A stretch of 64,000 nt of DNA from an uncultured Trueperaceae bacterium (lineage in GTDB: Bacteria > Deinococcota > Deinococci > Deinococcales > Trueperaceae): assembly GCA_937907415.1 (NCBI GenBank), contig CALCHY010000161.1:1-64000 (forward strand), given 5' to 3'. The notes under the pieces are model-generated. The model did no database searches, was not told where the DNA came from, and saw nothing but the letters and a program-made list of their open reading frames with translations. The position numbers were made by a program, and so were the translations under genes. Shown here in pieces: positions 7,450-15,568 of this stretch (its first letter is position 1; each line of letters starts with the position of its first letter).

Positions 7450-10146
7450 CTAGGAGACGCGCCCGAGGCCTAGGGCCTTGCCAACCTGACCGAGAAGCAT
7501 CGGCAGCAGCCCGGCGACGGCGACGAGCGTCCAGCCCCGTGCGCCTAGGAGCTCGATCGCCAGCACCTGCCGCAGTCCAGGTAAGGCTACTGCCAGCGCG
7601 ACGATCAAGCTGCATGTGAGGACGGCGGCCCACACCAAGCGGTTGCGAGTCACCTGGTTGTTGACTAGTGAACTACCTGGGTCGCGCATGTTGAAGACGT
7701 GCCACACCTGCCCGAGCGCCAAGGTCAGAAACGCGACGGTAATGGCCGTGCCGCTGGTCGCCCCCGGCAGCCTGAACGCCAGCTCGAACGCGCCGAGCGT
7801 GCTGAGCGTCAGTAGCGCTCCGTAGCCGATGACGCTGCGCCAGTGGCGTGGGGCCAACAGCGGCTCACTGGCTGGGCGTGGCGGCCGCGCGAGGATGCGC
7901 ACGTCTCCCCTCCCTGCCCCGAGGGCGAGCGCGGGGAGCACGTCGGTCACCAGGTTGAGGAAGAGGATCTGCAACGGCAGCAATGGCAGCGGGTAGCCGA
8001 GCAGCCCGGCCAGTCCTATGGTCATCACTTCACTGAGGTTGCAAGAGAGCAGGTAGAGGACGAAAGCGCGGATGTTGTCGAAGATCACGCGCCCCTCCTT
8101 GACGGCGGCCAAGATGGTGCCGAAAGCGTCGTCGAGCAACACCATGTCTGCCGCTTCGCGCGCCACCTCCGTTCCCCGCAGCCCCATCGCGACCCCGATG
8201 TCGGCGCGGCGTAACGCTGGCGCGTCGTTGACGCCGTCGCCCGTCATGGCGACGACGTGCCCCGCGCCCTGGTGCAGTGCTATGAGTTGCAACTTCTGTT
8301 CCGGCGCCACGCGTGCGAGCACGGAGGCGTTCAAGAGTTCGGCGCTACCTGCCGCGCCCGCCGCCAGCAGACGCGCGACGGCGAGACCGTCGAGCACCTC
8401 GCCCGTCACGGTCAAGCCGACTTGCTCCGCGACGCGACGAGCCGTCACTGCCTGATCGCCCGTCGCCATCACGACCCTGATGCCAGCCGCGTCAAGGCCG
8501 GCTAGCGCCGCGCTCACCTCCTTGCGCGGCGGGTCGGAGAGGCCGACGAGGCCGATGAGCGAGAGGTCTGCGTACGGCTCCGTCGGCTCACCCGCAGCTG
8601 TCTTCTCGGCTATGGCGATGACGCGCAGGCCCCGCGCCGCCAACGCCCTGTTCTCTTCGAGCCAGTGCGTGCGCTCGCTCGTAGTGAGGTGCCTGCGTCC
8701 GCTGCCCGCCGCGACGCTCGTGGCGGCCGCGATCACCTCGCCGGGCGCGCCCTTCACCAGCACCCAAACCTCGCCCTCCCCGAGGTCGTGGGCCGTTGCC
8801 ATCAGCCGGGTGACTGAGTCGAACGCCAACTGCCGTCGTTCAGGGAACCGCGCCAGCGCGGCGCCGCGCTCGATCCCGGCCTCGCGTGCCGCTAGCAGGA
8901 GCGCCACCTCTAGCGGGTCGCCAACGCCTTCGCCCTCTCGTCCCCCGACTTCCGGCAACTCCGCCGTGCAACAAAGCGCGGCGCCCGTCAGCGCTAGGTG
9001 CAGCTCAGTGGCGAGCTCCTGGCTGAGCGGCCGCGGCTGACCACCGTTAGCGGTTGACACTTCTCCGCCCGGTAGGCGCCACTCGACGACGCGCATGCGG
9101 TTCTCCGTCAACGTGCCCGTCTTGTCCGTGATGATCACGCTGGTGGCGCCAAGCGTCTCCACCGCCGAGAGGCGGTTGACCAAGGCGTTGCGGCTGGCCA
9201 TGCGCCTCACCCCTTGCGCCAGGGGCAGGGAGGCGATCACCGGCAGACCCTCCGGCACCGTCGCGACTGCGAGCGCGATGGCCGTCTGCAGCAGCACCAG
9301 CCACCCCTTGCCCGACTGAAGCCCGGTGAGGGTGACCACCACCGCCACGACGACGGTCAGCCACACGAGGCGCTGGGCCAGATCGTTGAGGCGCGCCTCG
9401 AGCGGCGTGCCTTGCGGGGCGGCCCGGTCAACGAGGCCACTGATGCGGCCGAGCTCGGTAGCCATGCCTGTTGCGACTACGACGGCCTCGCCAGTCCCGC
9501 GGGTGACCGGCGTGCCCTTGTGCAGCATCGGGGTGCGCTCCGGTAGGAGGGTGGCGGAAGCGACCGGGGCGGCAGCCTTGGCGACCGGCACGGACTCGCC
9601 AGTCAGGCTCGACTCGTCGACCTCCAACCGGCTCGCCTTGATCACGCGCGCGTCCGCCCCCACGAGGTCGCCGGCCTCGACCACGAGGATGTCGCCCGGC
9701 ACTAGGTCGTCCGCTTCGATCGTAGCGAGGTGGCCGCCGCGCCTGACGCGCACGTGCGACACTCCGAGCCGCCTGAGCGCCTCGACGGAGCGAGCCGCGC
9801 GCAGCTCGGTGACGAAGCCGATGCCGGCGTTGAGTGCGAGCACGACCAGGATGGCGACGGCCTCAGCCCACTGACCGAACAGCGCCGAGAGCCCAGCCGC
9901 CCCTCCCAACAACAACGTCAGCACGCCCTTGAACTGGTTGAGGAGCACCGTCCACCAGGCCGGGCCGTGCTTGAACTCGAGCGTGTTGGGTCCGTACTCG
10001 CTGAGGCGCTCTTCGACCTCCGCGGGGCTCAGGCCTTCGGCTTGGTCGACGCGCCACGTCTGGAGGAGCTCAGCTGCCTCGACCGCCCACGGGCTTAAGG
10101 CGCGCGCTTCGGTTGCGTTGGGGTGGCCCAGTGATCCAGGTACCAT
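7450..10146 (-). CDS. P-type cation-translocating ATPase (P2 type, calcium-pump-like)
   Basis: An 898-residue P-type ATPase. Visible landmarks in order: actuator TGES (182-185), PEGLP in M4 (298-302), phosphorylation site DKTGTLTENR with Asp341, ATGDQAVTARR, and the hinge MTGDGVNDAPALRRADIGVAMG-type segment. M6 reads NLVTDVLPALALG. N-terminal cation-ATPase and C-terminal membrane domains are present, so the pump is full length. The PEGLP and NLVTD motifs place it in the P2 (SERCA/PMR1-like) group, so Ca2+ or Mn2+ export is plausible, but the ion cannot be fixed from motifs. A TAGTCT box lies 9 nt before ATG 10146. It is convergent with the FAD oxidoreductase, leaving 33 bp. Confidence 0.9.
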   Translation of the reverse strand: MVPGSLGHPNATEARALSPWAVEAAELLQTWRVDQAEGLSPAEVEERLSEYGPNTLEFKHGPAWWTVLLNQFKGVLTLLLGGAAGLSALFGQWAEAVAILVVLALNAGIGFVTELRAARSVEALRRLGVSHVRVRRGGHLATIEADDLVPGDILVVEAGDLVGADARVIKASRLEVDESSLTGESVPVAKAAAPVASATLLPERTPMLHKGTPVTRGTGEAVVVATGMATELGRISGLVDRAAPQGTPLEARLNDLAQRLVWLTVVVAVVVTLTGLQSGKGWLVLLQTAIALAVATVPEGLPVIASLPLAQGVRRMASRNALVNRLSAVETLGATSVIITDKTGTLTENRMRVVEWRLPGGEVSTANGGQPRPLSQELATELHLALTGAALCCTAELPEVGGREGEGVGDPLEVALLLAAREAGIERGAALARFPERRQLAFDSVTRLMATAHDLGEGEVWVLVKGAPGEVIAAATSVAAGSGRRHLTTSERTHWLEENRALAARGLRVIAIAEKTAAGEPTEPYADLSLIGLVGLSDPPRKEVSAALAGLDAAGIRVVMATGDQAVTARRVAEQVGLTVTGEVLDGLAVARLLAAGAAGSAELLNASVLARVAPEQKLQLIALHQGAGHVVAMTGDGVNDAPALRRADIGVAMGLRGTEVAREAADMVLLDDAFGTILAAVKEGRVIFDNIRAFVLYLLSCNLSEVMTIGLAGLLGYPLPLLPLQILFLNLVTDVLPALALGAGRGDVRILARPPRPASEPLLAPRHWRSVIGYGALLTLSTLGAFELAFRLPGATSGTAITVAFLTLALGQVWHVFNMRDPGSSLVNNQVTRNRLVWAAVLTCSLIVALAVALPGLRQVLAIELLGARGWTLVAVAGLLPMLLGQVGKALGLGRVS

Positions 10147-10198: not shown

Positions 10199-11416
10199 TC
10201 ACCCACGGCCCGGGTCCGGTGCGACCTGCAAGGACGCCACGAACTGCTTGGCCGTGCGTCCGGAGTAGCCGTTGTTCCACTCAGCGAAGCGCAGCGCCCG
10301 CTCCTCGAGGTCTTGGGCCAACGAGATGCCCTTGGCGCTCGCGAGGGAACGGACCATCTTCAAGTATTGCCGTTGATCTGCTGCCGGGAACGTGATGACG
10401 AGCCCGAAACGGTCGGCTAGCGCTAGCCGCTCCTGGTGGGTGTCCCAAGCGTGAACGTCGTCGTCGAGGGGGTCTGGGCGGTCGCTGAGGCGCTCGCGCA
10501 CTAGGTGCCTGCGGTTGGAGGTGGCGTACACGACCGTGTTGTCTGGCCGCCGCCTCACGCCGCCCTCGAGGAGGCTCTTGAGTGGCCGGTACTCCTGGTC
10601 GCCACCACCGAACGAGAGGTCGTCGACGAACAGCACGAACTTGAGAGGCTGCGGCCTCAACTCCTCGAGGAGGAGCGGCAGCTCCTCTAGCGCGCCTACG
10701 GGCACCTCCACCAAGCGGAGGCCGCCGCTGGCGTAACGCTGCGCCAAGCCGCGCACGGCGGTCGACTTGCCGCTACCGCGCGCGCCGTAAGCGAGGACAT
10801 CGTTCGCTTGCTTGCCTAGCAGCAGCGCCTCCGTGTTCTGCGCCAAGCGCTCGAGCGGGTCATCTAAGTCGACGAGCTCCTCCCACGCCGGCGTGTCCGG
10901 GTAGCGCACGGGCTCCAGTCGACCGCCGCGCCACGTCAGCACGGGGTAGAGCGCAGCCGGTCCGTTGCCTACGGTCCTCAAGAGCTCGAGGAACACGCTC
11001 GAAACGCCGTCTGCGTCGGCGGTCGATAGCGCAGAGGCGAGTTTGGCCACGCGCTCGGCCGCACCGGCGCTCAGGCACGGTTCGGCCAGGCCCGTCAGGA
11101 CGATCGGGTGCTTGGTCGACGCGACCCCGTCGACGGGTTGGTTCACGCGCCTCAAGAGCTCACCCAAGCGCCACAGTTCGGCCCGTAGTAGCGTGCGCAG
11201 TCCGTCTGGCACGCGGCCCGTCGCGTAGGTGCTCAGCACGGAGCGGTTACTGAGGATGGTGTGCGCCATGGCGGAGGCCGGGTCCGGGTACCCAGCGGCA
11301 GCGAGCGCTACGGGTAAGTCGGCGCTGGACGCACTCGCCTCTCGCCTGGCCATGAAGGGTCCCCACCAGTCTGCTTGGGATAGGGCCGGGAAGAGCGAGC
11401 GAGCTGGCGTCGTCAT
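10199..11416 (-). CDS. DUF815 family AAA-type ATP-binding protein
   Basis: A 405-residue protein whose C-terminal half matches the DUF815 P-loop family. Walker A is YGARGSGKSTAV; Walker B is VLFVDDLSFGGGD, the DDLSF signature of this family; YATSNRRHLV follows as a sensor-like segment. The N-terminal ~170 residues are not recognised. DUF815 ATPases are widespread and uncharacterised. The start ATG (11416) overlaps the stop of the upstream patatin gene as ATGA, so the two are very likely translated together, which hints at a shared but unknown role. Confidence 0.78.
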   Translation of the reverse strand: MTTPARSLFPALSQADWWGPFMARREASASSADLPVALAAAGYPDPASAMAHTILSNRSVLSTYATGRVPDGLRTLLRAELWRLGELLRRVNQPVDGVASTKHPIVLTGLAEPCLSAGAAERVAKLASALSTADADGVSSVFLELLRTVGNGPAALYPVLTWRGGRLEPVRYPDTPAWEELVDLDDPLERLAQNTEALLLGKQANDVLAYGARGSGKSTAVRGLAQRYASGGLRLVEVPVGALEELPLLLEELRPQPLKFVLFVDDLSFGGGDQEYRPLKSLLEGGVRRRPDNTVVYATSNRRHLVRERLSDRPDPLDDDVHAWDTHQERLALADRFGLVITFPAADQRQYLKMVRSLASAKGISLAQDLEERALRFAEWNNGYSGRTAKQFVASLQVAPDPGRG

Positions 11417-12306
11417 GCCGGTGAGGGTACCGCGCCGCCGCGGCAGATGAAGCCGCTAGCGATGAGTTCGGTCATGGCTCGCTCGCCGACTTGGATGGCG
11501 AGGGGCGACTTGTGGAAGTCCCACCACGCCATGTGAGGATCTAGCCGCAGCAGCGTAGCCGCGGCCGGTGCTTGCAGTGCGTGGCTGTACGAGCCCAATG
11601 AGATCGCCAAGCCCCGATAGATCTGACCTAGCGGCCCGTGGGGTTCGACGCGCGCCCCGCGGCGCAGGAAAGCTTGCCCTACGCGCGAGGCGTTGAAGCG
11701 CCTGATGGCCCTGACCACGCCGGAGCGCCGCACGTCGACACCTGCGTGCACGCCTAGCCTGGCGACACCGTTGGCGACAGGCAGGCTCGAGAACGGCACC
11801 GGTTCGACGAAGCCGCCGTCGATCAACCAGCGTCCGCCGGCCTTCACCGGGGCGAAGAGGCCTGGCAGTGCGCAGCTGGCGCGCACGGCGTCGGCGATGT
11901 TGCCGGAATCGACGCGCACTAGCTCGCCAGTAGCGAGGTCGGTCGTGGCGATGACGAGCGGCACCTGCACGTCAGCGAAAGTGGCGCCGAGGAAGTACTT
12001 GCGGTCAAGCCAGTCGCGTAGGCGGCGGCCGTTGATCAGGGCGCCATGATGCAGACCGAAGTCGAGGCCCTGGCGCCAGACCTCCGCCATGTCCTGATCG
12101 CGCACGATGCGCTCCACCTCGAGGGCGTTGCCCGTGAGGGCGTAGAGCGCCGCGATGATGGCTCCGAACGACGTGCCGCCGAGCATGACGGGCGGCGCTC
12201 CGTTGGCGTCGAGCGCCTTGAGGACGCCGACGTGCACGAGGCCACGCGCCGTACCGCCCCCGAGGGCGACGGCTACGCGCATGCCCGCTGTCTCGAGCCG
12301 TTGCAT
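11413..12306 (-). CDS. patatin-like phospholipase (RssA family)
   Basis: A 297-residue patatin-fold lipid acyl hydrolase. The oxyanion loop GGGTARGLVHVGVLKAL, the nucleophile elbow GTSFG and the catalytic aspartate motif LIDGGFVEPVP are all intact, so it should be active as a Ser-Asp dyad enzyme. Although ATG 12282 would give a more usual N-terminus, ATG 12306 is preferred because TAACAT (12313-12318) lies exactly six bases before it, the leaderless arrangement. It is the first gene of a two-gene unit with the DUF815 ATPase (4-nt overlap). It diverges from dnaX. Substrate is unknown. Confidence 0.85.
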   Translation of the reverse strand: MQRLETAGMRVAVALGGGTARGLVHVGVLKALDANGAPPVMLGGTSFGAIIAALYALTGNALEVERIVRDQDMAEVWRQGLDFGLHHGALINGRRLRDWLDRKYFLGATFADVQVPLVIATTDLATGELVRVDSGNIADAVRASCALPGLFAPVKAGGRWLIDGGFVEPVPFSSLPVANGVARLGVHAGVDVRRSGVVRAIRRFNASRVGQAFLRRGARVEPHGPLGQIYRGLAISLGSYSHALQAPAAATLLRLDPHMAWWDFHKSPLAIQVGERAMTELIASGFICRGGAVPSPA

Positions 12307-12382: not shown

Positions 12383-14553
12383 ATGTCGGCTCTTTACCAA
12401 CGGGCACGGCCGGTCACGTTCGACGAGGTCGTGGGGCAGGACCACGTCAAGGACGTCCTGACTTCCGCCATCAGGCGCGGGCGAGTCGGGCACGCTTACC
12501 TATTCTCTGGGCCGCGCGGGGTTGGTAAGACGACCAGCGCGAGACTCCTCGCCATGGCCGTCAACTGTGAGGCCCCCGCCGAGCAACGCCCGTGCGGTGT
12601 CTGCGAGTCGTGCCGCCTCGTCCAGGCCGGTTCGCACCCGGACGTCATCGAGCTTGACGCGGCTTCCAACAACTCCGTCGAGGACGTGCGCGACTTGCGC
12701 GAACACGCCATGCTCGCGAGCATGCGCGGCGGCACGCGCGTCTGGATCCTCGACGAGGCGCACATGCTCAGCAAAGCCGCAGCTAACGCCCTGCTCAAGA
12801 CGCTCGAGGAACCGCCGCCAGGTCTGATGTTCATCCTCGCGACGACTGAACCGGAGCGCCTGCCGCCGACGGTGCTCTCGCGCTGCCAGCACTTCCGCTT
12901 CCGGCGCTTGACTGACGGCGAGATCGTCGGGAAACTGGCGCGGCTCGCGGAGGGCGCTGGCGTGGCCGCAGAGGCGCCCGCCCTCGACCTAGTGGCGCGC
13001 AGTGCGGACGGCGGCATGCGCGATGCAGAGTCGCTCCTCGATCGCCTCCTAGCCACCGGCGAGCCTGTGACGCTGCAACACACGGAGGACGCGCTCGGAC
13101 TACCACCTCACGAGCGGCTGCTTGCCATGGCGGCAGCCTTGGCTACCGGCGACCTGACTGGTCTCCTCGAGCAGGCGGGCAGCCTCTACCGGGCGGGTTT
13201 CGCGCCGCGCACCCTCGCCGAGCAGTTGGCGCGCACCTTGCGGACGGCGCTGCACGCCCAACTAGCTGGCGAGTCGCAGCTCGCGCTCACGGACACGGAA
13301 CTACTGCGACTACTCCACGCGCTCGATGACGAGCAGGAGCGCTTCATCAGGCACGACGACCTCTACTCACTCGAGGTCGCTCTCATCAAGGCGCGCAACG
13401 CGCTTAGCGGCAACGTGCCCGCCGCGTTCACAGCGCCGGCCGCCGCCACGCATGAAGCTCAGCAGACCGCGGCACCGAAGCGTGCGGAGCCCAAGAAGGT
13501 CGAGGGCCCGAGCGCGGCGCCCCGTGACGTCGGGGAGAGGGATAAGCCAGCGGAGCCAGCCGCCGAGGCGGCGCCCGCCGTCGAGGCGCCGCCCATGGCG
13601 GGCGCCCCGGCCGGCGCCTTCTCGTGGCATGCCGTGAGGAGCCGCGCCGACGTGCGCCTCAAGGCCTTCCTCGCCCCAGCACGCGTTGAGCAAGCAGACA
13701 CGGTCATCCGCGTGATCTTCCCCGCAGAGAACGAGTTCCACCACAAGCAACTGCTCCAGCGCCTTGACGAGTTCACGAAGCTAGTGGCTGAGGTGGCTGG
13801 CCCCGGGTACGAGTTGGTCATCGACGGACCCGCAGGCAACGCGCGCGCCAAAGTCACGGGCGCCACTAGCGGTGGTGGTCCAAAAAAAGCCTGACGGGGC
13901 GGGCAGTTCCCGCTCCGCAAGCGAGCAAACCGGAAGGGCGAACCAGCGAGGCGGCCGCGTTCGACCCTGCGCCTCGCCGGCCGCGGCCAACCCCCGCCCC
14001 GGTAGCCCAAGCTCCGCAGCCTGCGCCGGCCACGCCCCCGCCAGCTGCGCGCCCAAGCAACGCTCCGGCCGAGGTCACGGACTTCATTCCGGAGGACGTC
14101 GACTCGTCATTCGGTGGCGCCACTGGGGACCTGTGGGCGGACGACGGGAGCGATGAACTCCCCGCGGTGGGTGGCGGAGCGCCGGTCGACGATGAGTCAC
14201 CCGAGCTGGCGACGCCGAGCCAGTCAAGCACTCAGGTCCGCTCGAGCAGCCGCACAGCGCCTGCCGCGCGACCAGCGCCGAGCAGAGCCGGCGAGCGCCC
14301 ACCGCGCGGCGGGAGCAAGCCACCCGCTATTCAGCCTGCGTTCGAGCCTAAGACCGTCAGTTCTGACACGCCGCAGGGCAAGGCGTTCGCGGAGTTGGTC
14401 GCGCTCTTCCCCGGCAAAGTCATCGAGGTCGTTCCGCTGCGCCAAGCTGCTGACACCGGGGACGAGAGCGACGCACAGAGCGCAACAGAAGCGGCCTTCG
14501 CTGACGGGTACGATGACCCAACCGGCGCCGAGTTGGACAACGACGACGCCTGA
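12383..14553 (+). CDS. dnaX: DNA polymerase III tau subunit, expressed by -1 frameshift/slippage
   Basis: The clamp-loader ATPase of the replicative polymerase. Frame 0 alone (12383-13894) gives a 503-residue gamma-like protein: Walker A GPRGVGKT (43-50), zinc cysteines 62, 71, 74 and 77, DEAH box at 124-127, sensor ATTEPERLP. Frame 0 ends at TGA 13892, one codon after a run of seven A (13882-13888). The -1 frame is open without interruption from the A run to TGA 14551. It encodes a further 221 residues: a Pro/Ala-rich linker and an acidic C-terminal segment with FAELVALFPGKVIEV, which looks like a folded tau tail. A -1 shift on the A run would make a 723-residue tau. A 9-bp stem-loop starts six bases after the run. 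A TAGACT box lies 9 nt before ATG 12383. Confidence 0.85.
13882..13917 (+). promoter_or_regulatory. programmed frameshift cassette in dnaX: A7 slippery run plus stem-loop
   Basis: The run A AAA AAA (13882-13888) is read in frame 0 as two Lys codons, so slipping back one base keeps perfect codon-anticodon pairing. Six bases later a 9-bp stem (13895-13903 with 13909-13917, one G.U pair, five-base loop) can form. GGTGGTGG at 13871-13878 could pair weakly with 16S rRNA, though it lies closer than the ideal distance for a -1 shift. The same A run could also support transcriptional slippage, as on the A9 run of Thermus thermophilus dnaX. Confidence 0.7.
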
Positions 14554-14604: not shown

Positions 14605-14916
14605 GTGAACATCCAGAAGCTGATGAAAGAAGCCCAACGCGCCCAGCAGAAAGTGAACGAGGCGCAAGAGCGCCTGGCAAGCATGACCGTCGAGGGCTCG
14701 GCGGGCGCCGGCTTGGTGCGTGCAGAGGCAACGGGCGACGGCACCGTCACCAAGGTGCGCATCGATGCCAAGGTCGTCGACGCGTCAGACGTCGAGATGC
14801 TCGAAGACCTCGTCACGGCCGCCGTAAGCGACGCTCAGCGCAAGGCCAAGGAACTGCAGGAGAAGGAGATGGGCGCTGCCATGGGCGGCATGGGCGGCCT
14901 CGGGGGCATGCTCTGA
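14605..14916 (+). CDS. ybaB: YbaB/EbfC family nucleoid-associated protein
   Basis: A 103-residue small DNA-binding protein of the YbaB/EbfC family, which forms dimers that bind and bend DNA and is commonly encoded between dnaX and recR, exactly as here. The N-terminus starts with NIQKLMKEAQRAQQKV and a long helix; the core VEGSAGAGLVRAEATGDG is typical; the C-terminus is a Gly/Met-rich tail. The start is GTG 14605 with a good Shine-Dalgarno (GAGGAG) seven bases upstream, so this gene uses a leadered ribosome site, unlike many of its neighbours. Confidence 0.9.
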   Translation: MNIQKLMKEAQRAQQKVNEAQERLASMTVEGSAGAGLVRAEATGDGTVTKVRIDAKVVDASDVEMLEDLVTAAVSDAQRKAKELQEKEMGAAMGGMGGLGGML

Positions 14917-14965: not shown

Positions 14966-15568
14966 ATGAGCGTGCGCTTCCCAACGGCGCTCCTTACGCT
15001 CATCCGCGAGCTGGGGCGCCTGCCTGGCATCGGGCCGAAGAGCGCTCAGCGCCTGGCGTTCTACCTCTTCAACCGCCCTGAAGAGGAAGTGAGGGCGCTT
15101 GCCGCCGCCCTCGTAGAGGCTAAGACGGGCCTCGAGCGTTGCCCGCTCTGCTTCAACGTCATGAGCAGCGGGTCTGACTGCTGCGCCGTGTGCGCAGACA
15201 CGCGCCGCGACCGCGCCCTCTTGTGCGTTGTCGAACAACCAGCTGACTTGCTTGCCATCGAGCGCTCAGGCGAGTACCAGGGCCTGTATCACGTGCTGCA
15301 CGGCTCCCTCAGCCCCATGAACGGCATCGGACCTGAGCAACTGACCATCGCCGCCCTTCAACAGCGCCTAGCTGGCGTGCGCGAGGTCGTCCTCGCCACC
15401 TCGACCACCGTGGAAGGCGAGGCAACGGCGCACTACTTGGCGCGCCAACTCGGGTCCTCAGGCGTTGCGGTCAGCCGTATCGCGTACGGTCTTCCCGTAG
15501 GCGGGGACCTAGAGTACGCAGACGAGGTTACGCTAGGCCGCGCCATCAGTAACCGGCGCCCAGTCTGA
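14966..15568 (+). CDS. recR: recombination mediator RecR
   Basis: A 200-residue RecR, which with RecO (18893-19627 in this window) loads RecA on SSB-coated single-stranded DNA. An N-terminal helix-hairpin-helix (LPGIGPKSAQRLAFYL), a four-Cys zinc finger (Cys59, Cys62, Cys73, Cys76) and a Toprim domain with LCVVEQPADLLAIE are all present, in the family order and at normal length. It lies 49 bp after ybaB. No clear Shine-Dalgarno precedes ATG 14966. topA downstream has its own consensus promoter, so the dnaX-ybaB-recR group probably ends here. Confidence 0.95.
   Translation: MSVRFPTALLTLIRELGRLPGIGPKSAQRLAFYLFNRPEEEVRALAAALVEAKTGLERCPLCFNVMSSGSDCCAVCADTRRDRALLCVVEQPADLLAIERSGEYQGLYHVLHGSLSPMNGIGPEQLTIAALQQRLAGVREVVLATSTTVEGEATAHYLARQLGSSGVAVSRIAYGLPVGGDLEYADEVTLGRAISNRRPV

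Follow-up and report, generated by a model that had tools for sequence, protein, structure and literature searches.

The dnaX locus

The window, that is, the whole 64-kb stretch of DNA from an uncultured Trueperaceae bacterium that was analysed, contains a dnaX gene whose features are listed below, together with its downstream neighbours.

12383..13894, plus strand: dnaX frame 0, gamma form, 503 aa, ending ...GGGPKKA-stop (open reading frame, Pfam and NCBIfam)
13871..13879, plus strand: Shine-Dalgarno-like stretch GGTGGTGGT, shortly before the slippery heptamer, no more than a candidate stimulator
13882..13888, plus strand: slippery heptamer A_AAA_AAA (A7), from the window sequence and the family comparison
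13892..13894, plus strand: gamma stop TGA in frame 0, one codon after the heptamer
13888..14553, plus strand: probable tau tail in the -1 frame, 221 codons (13888-14550) and a stop (14551-14553)
13895..13917, plus strand: stem-loop, candidate stimulator, 9 bp with a 5-nt loop, 6 nt after the heptamer
14386..14430, plus strand: conserved, probable tau C-terminal motif FAELVALFPGKVIEV in the -1 frame (motif count and tail profile)
14605..14916, plus strand: ybaB/ebfC, downstream neighbour (Pfam YbaB_DNA_bd, 3.1e-30)
14966..15568, plus strand: recR, next downstream after ybaB/ebfC (Pfam RecR_HhH, Toprim_4 and RecR_C)

The frame-0 product is a bacterial dnaX gamma/tau clamp-loader ATPase in which both the ATPase and the lid domains are present (Pfam DNA_pol3_delta2, 7.4e-47, and DNAX_ATPase_lid, 1.3e-10; NCBIfam PRK14963 gamma/tau, 3.1e-207). 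Upstream of dnaX, on the minus strand, lie open reading frames at 11413-12306 and 7450-10146, which from the look of their motifs we take to encode a patatin-type phospholipase and a P-type cation ATPase, respectively. At the A7 run, frame 0 reads CCA AAA AAA GCC TGA. As a first-pass annotation of this DNA had described, frame 0 ends one codon after the run and the -1 frame then stays open for 221 codons; the 9-bp stem-loop that it had placed six bases after the run lies at exactly that distance. The predicted products are gamma, of 503 aa, and tau, of 502 + 221 = 723 aa.

The A7 run by itself is unremarkable in the window; its position is remarkable. A search for AAAAAAR on both strands of the 64 kb returns the A7 as the sole site (two overlapping matches), where shuffling leads one to expect 1.16 matches and 30 of 100 shuffles reach two. 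An Rfam search over 4 kb yielded nothing but one sub-threshold, unrelated match.

Slippery site and stem-loop in Trueperaceae

Among 39 Trueperaceae genomes, dnaX was obtained from 35, and its frame-0 stop lies inside the contig in 30. In 27 of these 30, as in the window, frame 0 stops just past a short slippery site; these 28 sites form the set considered below, extended to 29 genes where L095 is included. The heptamer one codon before the stop is AAAAAAA at 15 of the 28 sites, so that both heptamer codons are AAA, AAAAAAG at 11, GGGAAAA at one (L098) and AAAAATA at one (L101), and it is followed by TGA (20 sites), TAG (5) or TAA (3). The pattern X_XXY_YYZ in the frame-0 register is found in the window (A_AAA_AAA) and, overall, at 27 of the 28 sites of the clade; the exception is L101, in which an A7 begins two bases earlier, off register. 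Among other phyla, a heptamer lies within four codons of the stop in 2 of 75 complete dnaX loci (77 of 80 loci scanned, two of them truncated), compared with 27 of 28 in the clade, with L101 scored as none. No run of eight A's, the minimum length for a Thermus-type homopolymer, is present at any of the 28 sites. The departures, three of the 30 family genomes, are L095 (A9, gamma default), L102 (A9, tau default) and L090, in which tau is encoded in one frame without an A run. The first-pass annotation had proposed an alignment of related Deinococcota, and the slippery site, the stem-loop and the frame relation prove to be conserved across the clade; relatives that encode all of the tail in frame 0 and lack a run, which it had said would refute it, do occur, in the form of L090, a minority inside the clade.

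Homopolymers are error-prone, and the break in the frame could also come from a mistake in sequencing or assembly, or from the genuine loss of one base in a single-frame dnaX; a single-frame tau exists in L090, and 12 of the best 120 of 7997 protein matches are longer than 640 aa. However, the break recurs at this position in 27 further genomes, among them chromosomes in a single contig, and 97 of the same best 120 matches end in KK plus 0-2 residues (108 of the 120 have 640 residues or fewer). The dnaX gene of L108 has the same gamma-default arrangement and sits on a single contig of 3,260,398 bp, so the arrangement is not an artefact of draft assembly. An error or deletion is refuted in effect, with a negligible probability left to it, in agreement with the first-pass annotation, which had argued against a sequencing error. 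As for annotation, the records that end at the slippery site (97 of the best 120) miss the tau tail.

Seven relatives from the protein search (P0019, P0024, P0026, P0031, P0033, P0043 and P0057) have a frame 0 that ends in [N/S/G]-PKA, not KKx; N, S and G can each be encoded with C in the third codon position, which would permit a C_CCA_AAR heptamer. In L191 (genome G006), there is an in-frame TGA early in the ATPase domain of dnaX, after ...LLAMAVN, where the window has Cys; this TGA is either an assembly error or a case of recoding.

In the window, the predicted stem is formed by 13895-13903 pairing with 13909-13917, including one G-U pair, around the 5-nt loop, and is only modestly better than shuffled sequences (z of -1.5 and -1.3 in two tests). 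Across species, RNAalifold on a MAFFT alignment returned no consensus structure; stem lengths vary and the 3' arms do not align, and for this reason the stem start and an arm-swap test were used in its place. In 27 of the 29 genes, the longest stem starts no more than 1 nt away from where the stop codon ends, the exceptions being L100 and L105 (ties counted, start offsets from -6 to +7). The mean capped stem length is 6.5 with a gene's own arms and 5.3 when 5' arms are swapped between species, and none of 20000 permutations was as good as the own arms, in a statistic that ignores relatedness. Base pair 4 of the stem is seen as G-C, A-U, G-U and C-G. The fold z has a mean of -2.0 over the 29 genes, with 17 below -1.5 and five above -1 (L084, L086, L091, L095 and L117), compared with a mean of -0.4 in seven gamma-default A9/A10 genes outside the family (L166, identical to L165, was omitted). 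Co-variation and placement thus point to a conserved downstream RNA structure a few bases past the heptamer.

The Shine-Dalgarno-like stretch is a less certain element. In the window, the best anti-Shine-Dalgarno pairing ends 3 nt before the heptamer, and none of 40 control positions in the head of the same gene pairs as strongly. In the family, the pairing peaks about 6 nt before the heptamer, with a mean of -6.2 kcal/mol compared with -1.0 at that place in tau-default genes with A8-A10 runs; the mean best energy within 3-17 nt, by comparison, is -7.9 in the family, -7.7 in tau-default and -8.4 in gamma-default A8-A10 genes. The signal is confounded, as the stretch overlaps the coding of a Gly-rich peptide. 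As a stimulator it is not established and counts as weak evidence, differing from the A8-A10 genes in position alone and being equal in strength.

The tail in the -1 frame

The -1 tail of the window is rich in proline and alanine and ends FAELVALFPGKVIEV...NDDA. An end motif of the LFPG type stands in the -1 frame at 27 of the 28 sites, or in 28 of 29 genes with L095, so that the frame relation read in the first-pass annotation, a default gamma with tau needing a -1 slip, is a conserved one. In L100, the -1 frame is still open at the end of the locus. In L103, a -1 stretch of 154 codons comes first and the motif follows it in the +1 frame, likely through an indel.

The family tail is very probably a tau tail, because its profile matches the in-frame tau ends of the sister families: in hhalign, the family tails align to these ends with a probability of 86.8 and an E value of 4.2e-6 over 23 columns, compared with 0.2 for the reversed control. 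The family profile was built from 27 tails (26 of the 28, without L100 and L103, and L095), and the in-frame profile from the ends of 48 tau-default A8-A10 genes, without L102. Searches of Pfam and NCBIfam with the tail alone gave no family match, and a protein search with the tail alone gave one match, 99% identical over 83%.

The tail coding sequence looks constrained. Its dN/dS is 0.26-0.56 in nine pairs, with a third-position excess, in a comparison that has no other-frame control and in which several dS values are near saturation; for the window, the values are 0.42 against L084 and 0.41 against L118. In the head, dN/dS is 0.11-0.23 for the seven pairs that yielded a usable value, which leaves out L106-L191 (early in-frame stop in L191) and L091-L123 (saturated dS). 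These values bear on the possibility that the gene makes gamma only and that the frame behind it is a remnant in decay, or else encodes a small protein with its own start. The tail does change fast, that of the window being 48-49% identical in amino acids to that of L084 or L118, and is rich in proline and alanine; however, besides the dN/dS and the third-position excess, the end motif is kept in 28 of 29 genes, and the first ATG, GTG or TTG of the -1 frame past the site is a GTG at 14167, 279 nt in. A gamma-only gene would also leave the conservation of site and stem without a reason, and we hold this explanation to be very improbable.

Ribosome or RNA polymerase

The E. coli and Trueperaceae genes share an A_AAA_AAG-type heptamer, an upstream Shine-Dalgarno-like stretch (in the family a candidate stimulator), a stop within six bases of the heptamer with a GC hairpin after it, the order of heptamer, short spacer and stop, and, as predicted for the family, gamma and tau from one gene. 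In the E. coli K-12 sequence, AGGGAG ends 10 nt before A_AAA_AAG, which is followed by AG-TGA. The main difference is the spacer: AG-TGA (5 nt) in E. coli puts the stop in the -1 frame, and a slip leads to gamma, whereas NNN-stop (6 nt) in the family puts the gamma stop in frame 0 because of the one additional base, and a slip would lead to tau. The short form, in E. coli the yield of the frameshift, is thus the frame-0 product in the family. According to Atkins 2016, a single base can reverse the roles.

The first-pass annotation was right that the order is reversed with respect to E. coli and Thermus, but the reversal is not new. Antonov 2013 describes 17 dnaX genes from 12 genera, nine of them with A10, in which tau needs -1 recoding, and reads them as transcription slippage, arguably with shorter poly-A too; Atkins 2016 repeats these cases and names Chlorobium phaeobacteroides (A7) as a candidate whose gene may carry stimulators of the E. 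coli type (unpublished there). The window gene likewise comprises two open reading frames with a -1 shift at the DNA level, a frame-0 gamma stop directly after the site and a tau that would need recoding. Different from the Antonov 2013 set, the arrangement in Trueperaceae extends over a whole family and comprises six or seven A's and a co-varying hairpin. The main text of Antonov 2013 does not contain Truepera or Meiothermus (a supplementary Truepera entry is possible), the main text of the T. radiovictrix genome paper has no occurrence of dnaX, and a literature search on dnaX with Truepera, Deinococcus and slippage had no paper on Trueperaceae dnaX among the matches listed; PMC11219805, which mentions both Truepera and dnaX, has D. 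radiodurans as its subject. The new element is the proposed change of mechanism within a class, gamma-default dnaX being already known.

The closest known system by phylum is dnaX of Thermus thermophilus, which, as reported, has an A9 on which RNA polymerase slips, with tau in frame 0. It shares with the family the gene, an A run between the gamma part and the tau tail, and a related tail, as judged from the sister-family profile; the family differs in having six or seven A's, gamma in frame 0 and a hairpin at a fixed place.

The class was sampled with 111 genomes, 104 of which have dnaX, giving with the window 105 rows, 91 complete and 14 cut off at contig ends and not counted. In a tree of the DnaX ATPase part (quick method, SH-aLRT only; L190 omitted as too short), the window falls within a clade of 36 rows, the 35 family rows and itself, with a support of 99. 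Outside the family are 69 rows, of which 60 are complete: 48 are tau default and eight gamma default with A8-A10, and four (L167, L169, L171 and L184) have no such run. L169 (genome G102), on the Thermus side, has three in-frame TGAs, which are probably assembly errors, and, with no A run present, a -1-frame tail that resembles that of tau. The runs of the other 56, located between the ATPase part and the tail, consist of nine A's in 44 genes, eight in nine and ten in three, and occur in all three phases (25, 25 and 6). Among the tau-default genes, 49 when L102 is counted, the run is followed within 12 codons by stops in both other frames in 37, in one of these frames in 11 and in neither in one. 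In the eight gamma-default A9/A10 genes, among which L168 is classed although its stop comes four codons after the run, the tail lies at -1 in four and at +1 in three (two of them identical), and one is cut off; such a mixture is what changes of run length under transcription slippage would give. The difference from the family in -1 direction has a Fisher p of 0.006 without L103 and of 0.019 with L103 as +1, or of 0.028 and 0.074 with the identical outside genes counted once, relatedness being ignored in each case.

In two close pairs outside the family, L138 and L142, and L180 and L176, the default product differs: on the L138 and L180 side, a frame-0 stop follows A10 or A9, and the partner has tau in frame with A9. 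In these pairs, where slippage seems to be transcriptional, a switch of default product is accompanied by few other differences.

These data can be set against the reading modelled on Thermus thermophilus, in which RNA polymerase lengthens the run by an A and the longer mRNA, translated normally, gives tau. An A8-A10 run in 56 of 60 complete sister-family genes, the A9 of L095 and L102 inside the family, the preference of Antonov 2013 for this mechanism in gamma-default dnaX, and the IS elements of D. radiodurans, where slippage seems productive at eight A's (PMC1088944), are all in its favour. Against it, the window has seven A's, 11 of the 28 sites have six and one is GGGAAAA; the family tail follows in the -1 frame in 27 of 28 genes, whereas either direction occurs among slippage genes; and polymerase slippage has no need of a co-varying stem at a fixed distance. 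AAAAAAG and GGGAAAA are ribosomal heptamers and poor sites for polymerase slippage. Transcription slippage is accordingly unlikely in the window, though clearly less so than the gamma-only gene.

The lysine tRNAs point the other way. Atkins 2016 suggests that polymerase slippage in T. thermophilus is due to its having two Lys tRNAs, the second of which would disfavour ribosomal slippage on AAG, and gives E. coli one Lys tRNA. By a relaxed pattern, tRNA-Lys(CUU) is found in 93 of 111 class genomes (five with the strict pattern used first) and in 26 of 39 family genomes, a difference from E. coli, and ARAGORN confirmed ten of ten CUU loci, three of them from A_AAA_AAG genomes. Given the idea in Atkins 2016, its presence counts against ribosomal slippage. 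Nine of the 11 genomes with A_AAA_AAG have it by pattern (it was found in neither G028 nor G029), so that encoding a second Lys tRNA is in itself no obstacle to the gamma-default A_AAA_AAG arrangement. The proposal that the family uses A_AAA_AAG for want of tRNA-Lys(CUU) is rejected on the same count.

The first-pass annotation had left the mechanism open, and the comparison favours ribosomal frameshifting over slippage of the Thermus type. It is highly likely, judging by sequence, that the window dnaX is a programmed -1 ribosomal frameshift gene with gamma as the default product and tau made by the slip. Most ribosomes would read CCA AAA AAA GCC and stop at the TGA, giving gamma. A fraction would be paused by the hairpin, which begins at the stop codon, perhaps helped in slipping by the upstream Shine-Dalgarno-like contact, and both Lys tRNAs would re-pair one base back on A_AAA_AAA, with reading resumed at AGC CTG ACG .... 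The 221-codon proline/alanine-rich tail with its LFPG motif would thereby be added, giving tau of 723 aa. The sequences themselves show the frame arrangement and its conservation, the co-varying stem, signs of constraint on the tail and its likeness to in-frame tau tails; slippage itself, the ribosome as its agent and its efficiency we infer. Tau couples polymerases in the replisome, and tau tails elsewhere bind polymerase; by analogy, the family tail may do the same.

On the tree, the short-site state requires three changes among 86 rows and the default product nine among 88. Most simply, the ribosomal signal would have arisen once, at the base of the family, and A9 would have been regained twice. 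L102, tau default, and L095, gamma default without a clear stem, both have A9 at the junction and are apparent returns to the Thermus type. We consider it reasonably probable, with less confidence than for the window gene, that at the base of Trueperaceae dnaX recoding moved from RNA polymerase to the ribosome, the default flipped from tau to gamma and the tau supply became dependent on translation, with L095 and L102 having gone back to A9. One class would then contain both mechanisms of recoding at a single site, exchanged at least three times on the tree, and would offer a natural series in which to test how one gives way to the other; A_AAA_AAG would persist where tRNA-Lys(CUU) is encoded. 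If this is true, nearly a whole bacterial family would have frameshifting as its only means of making tau, an important subunit in replication.
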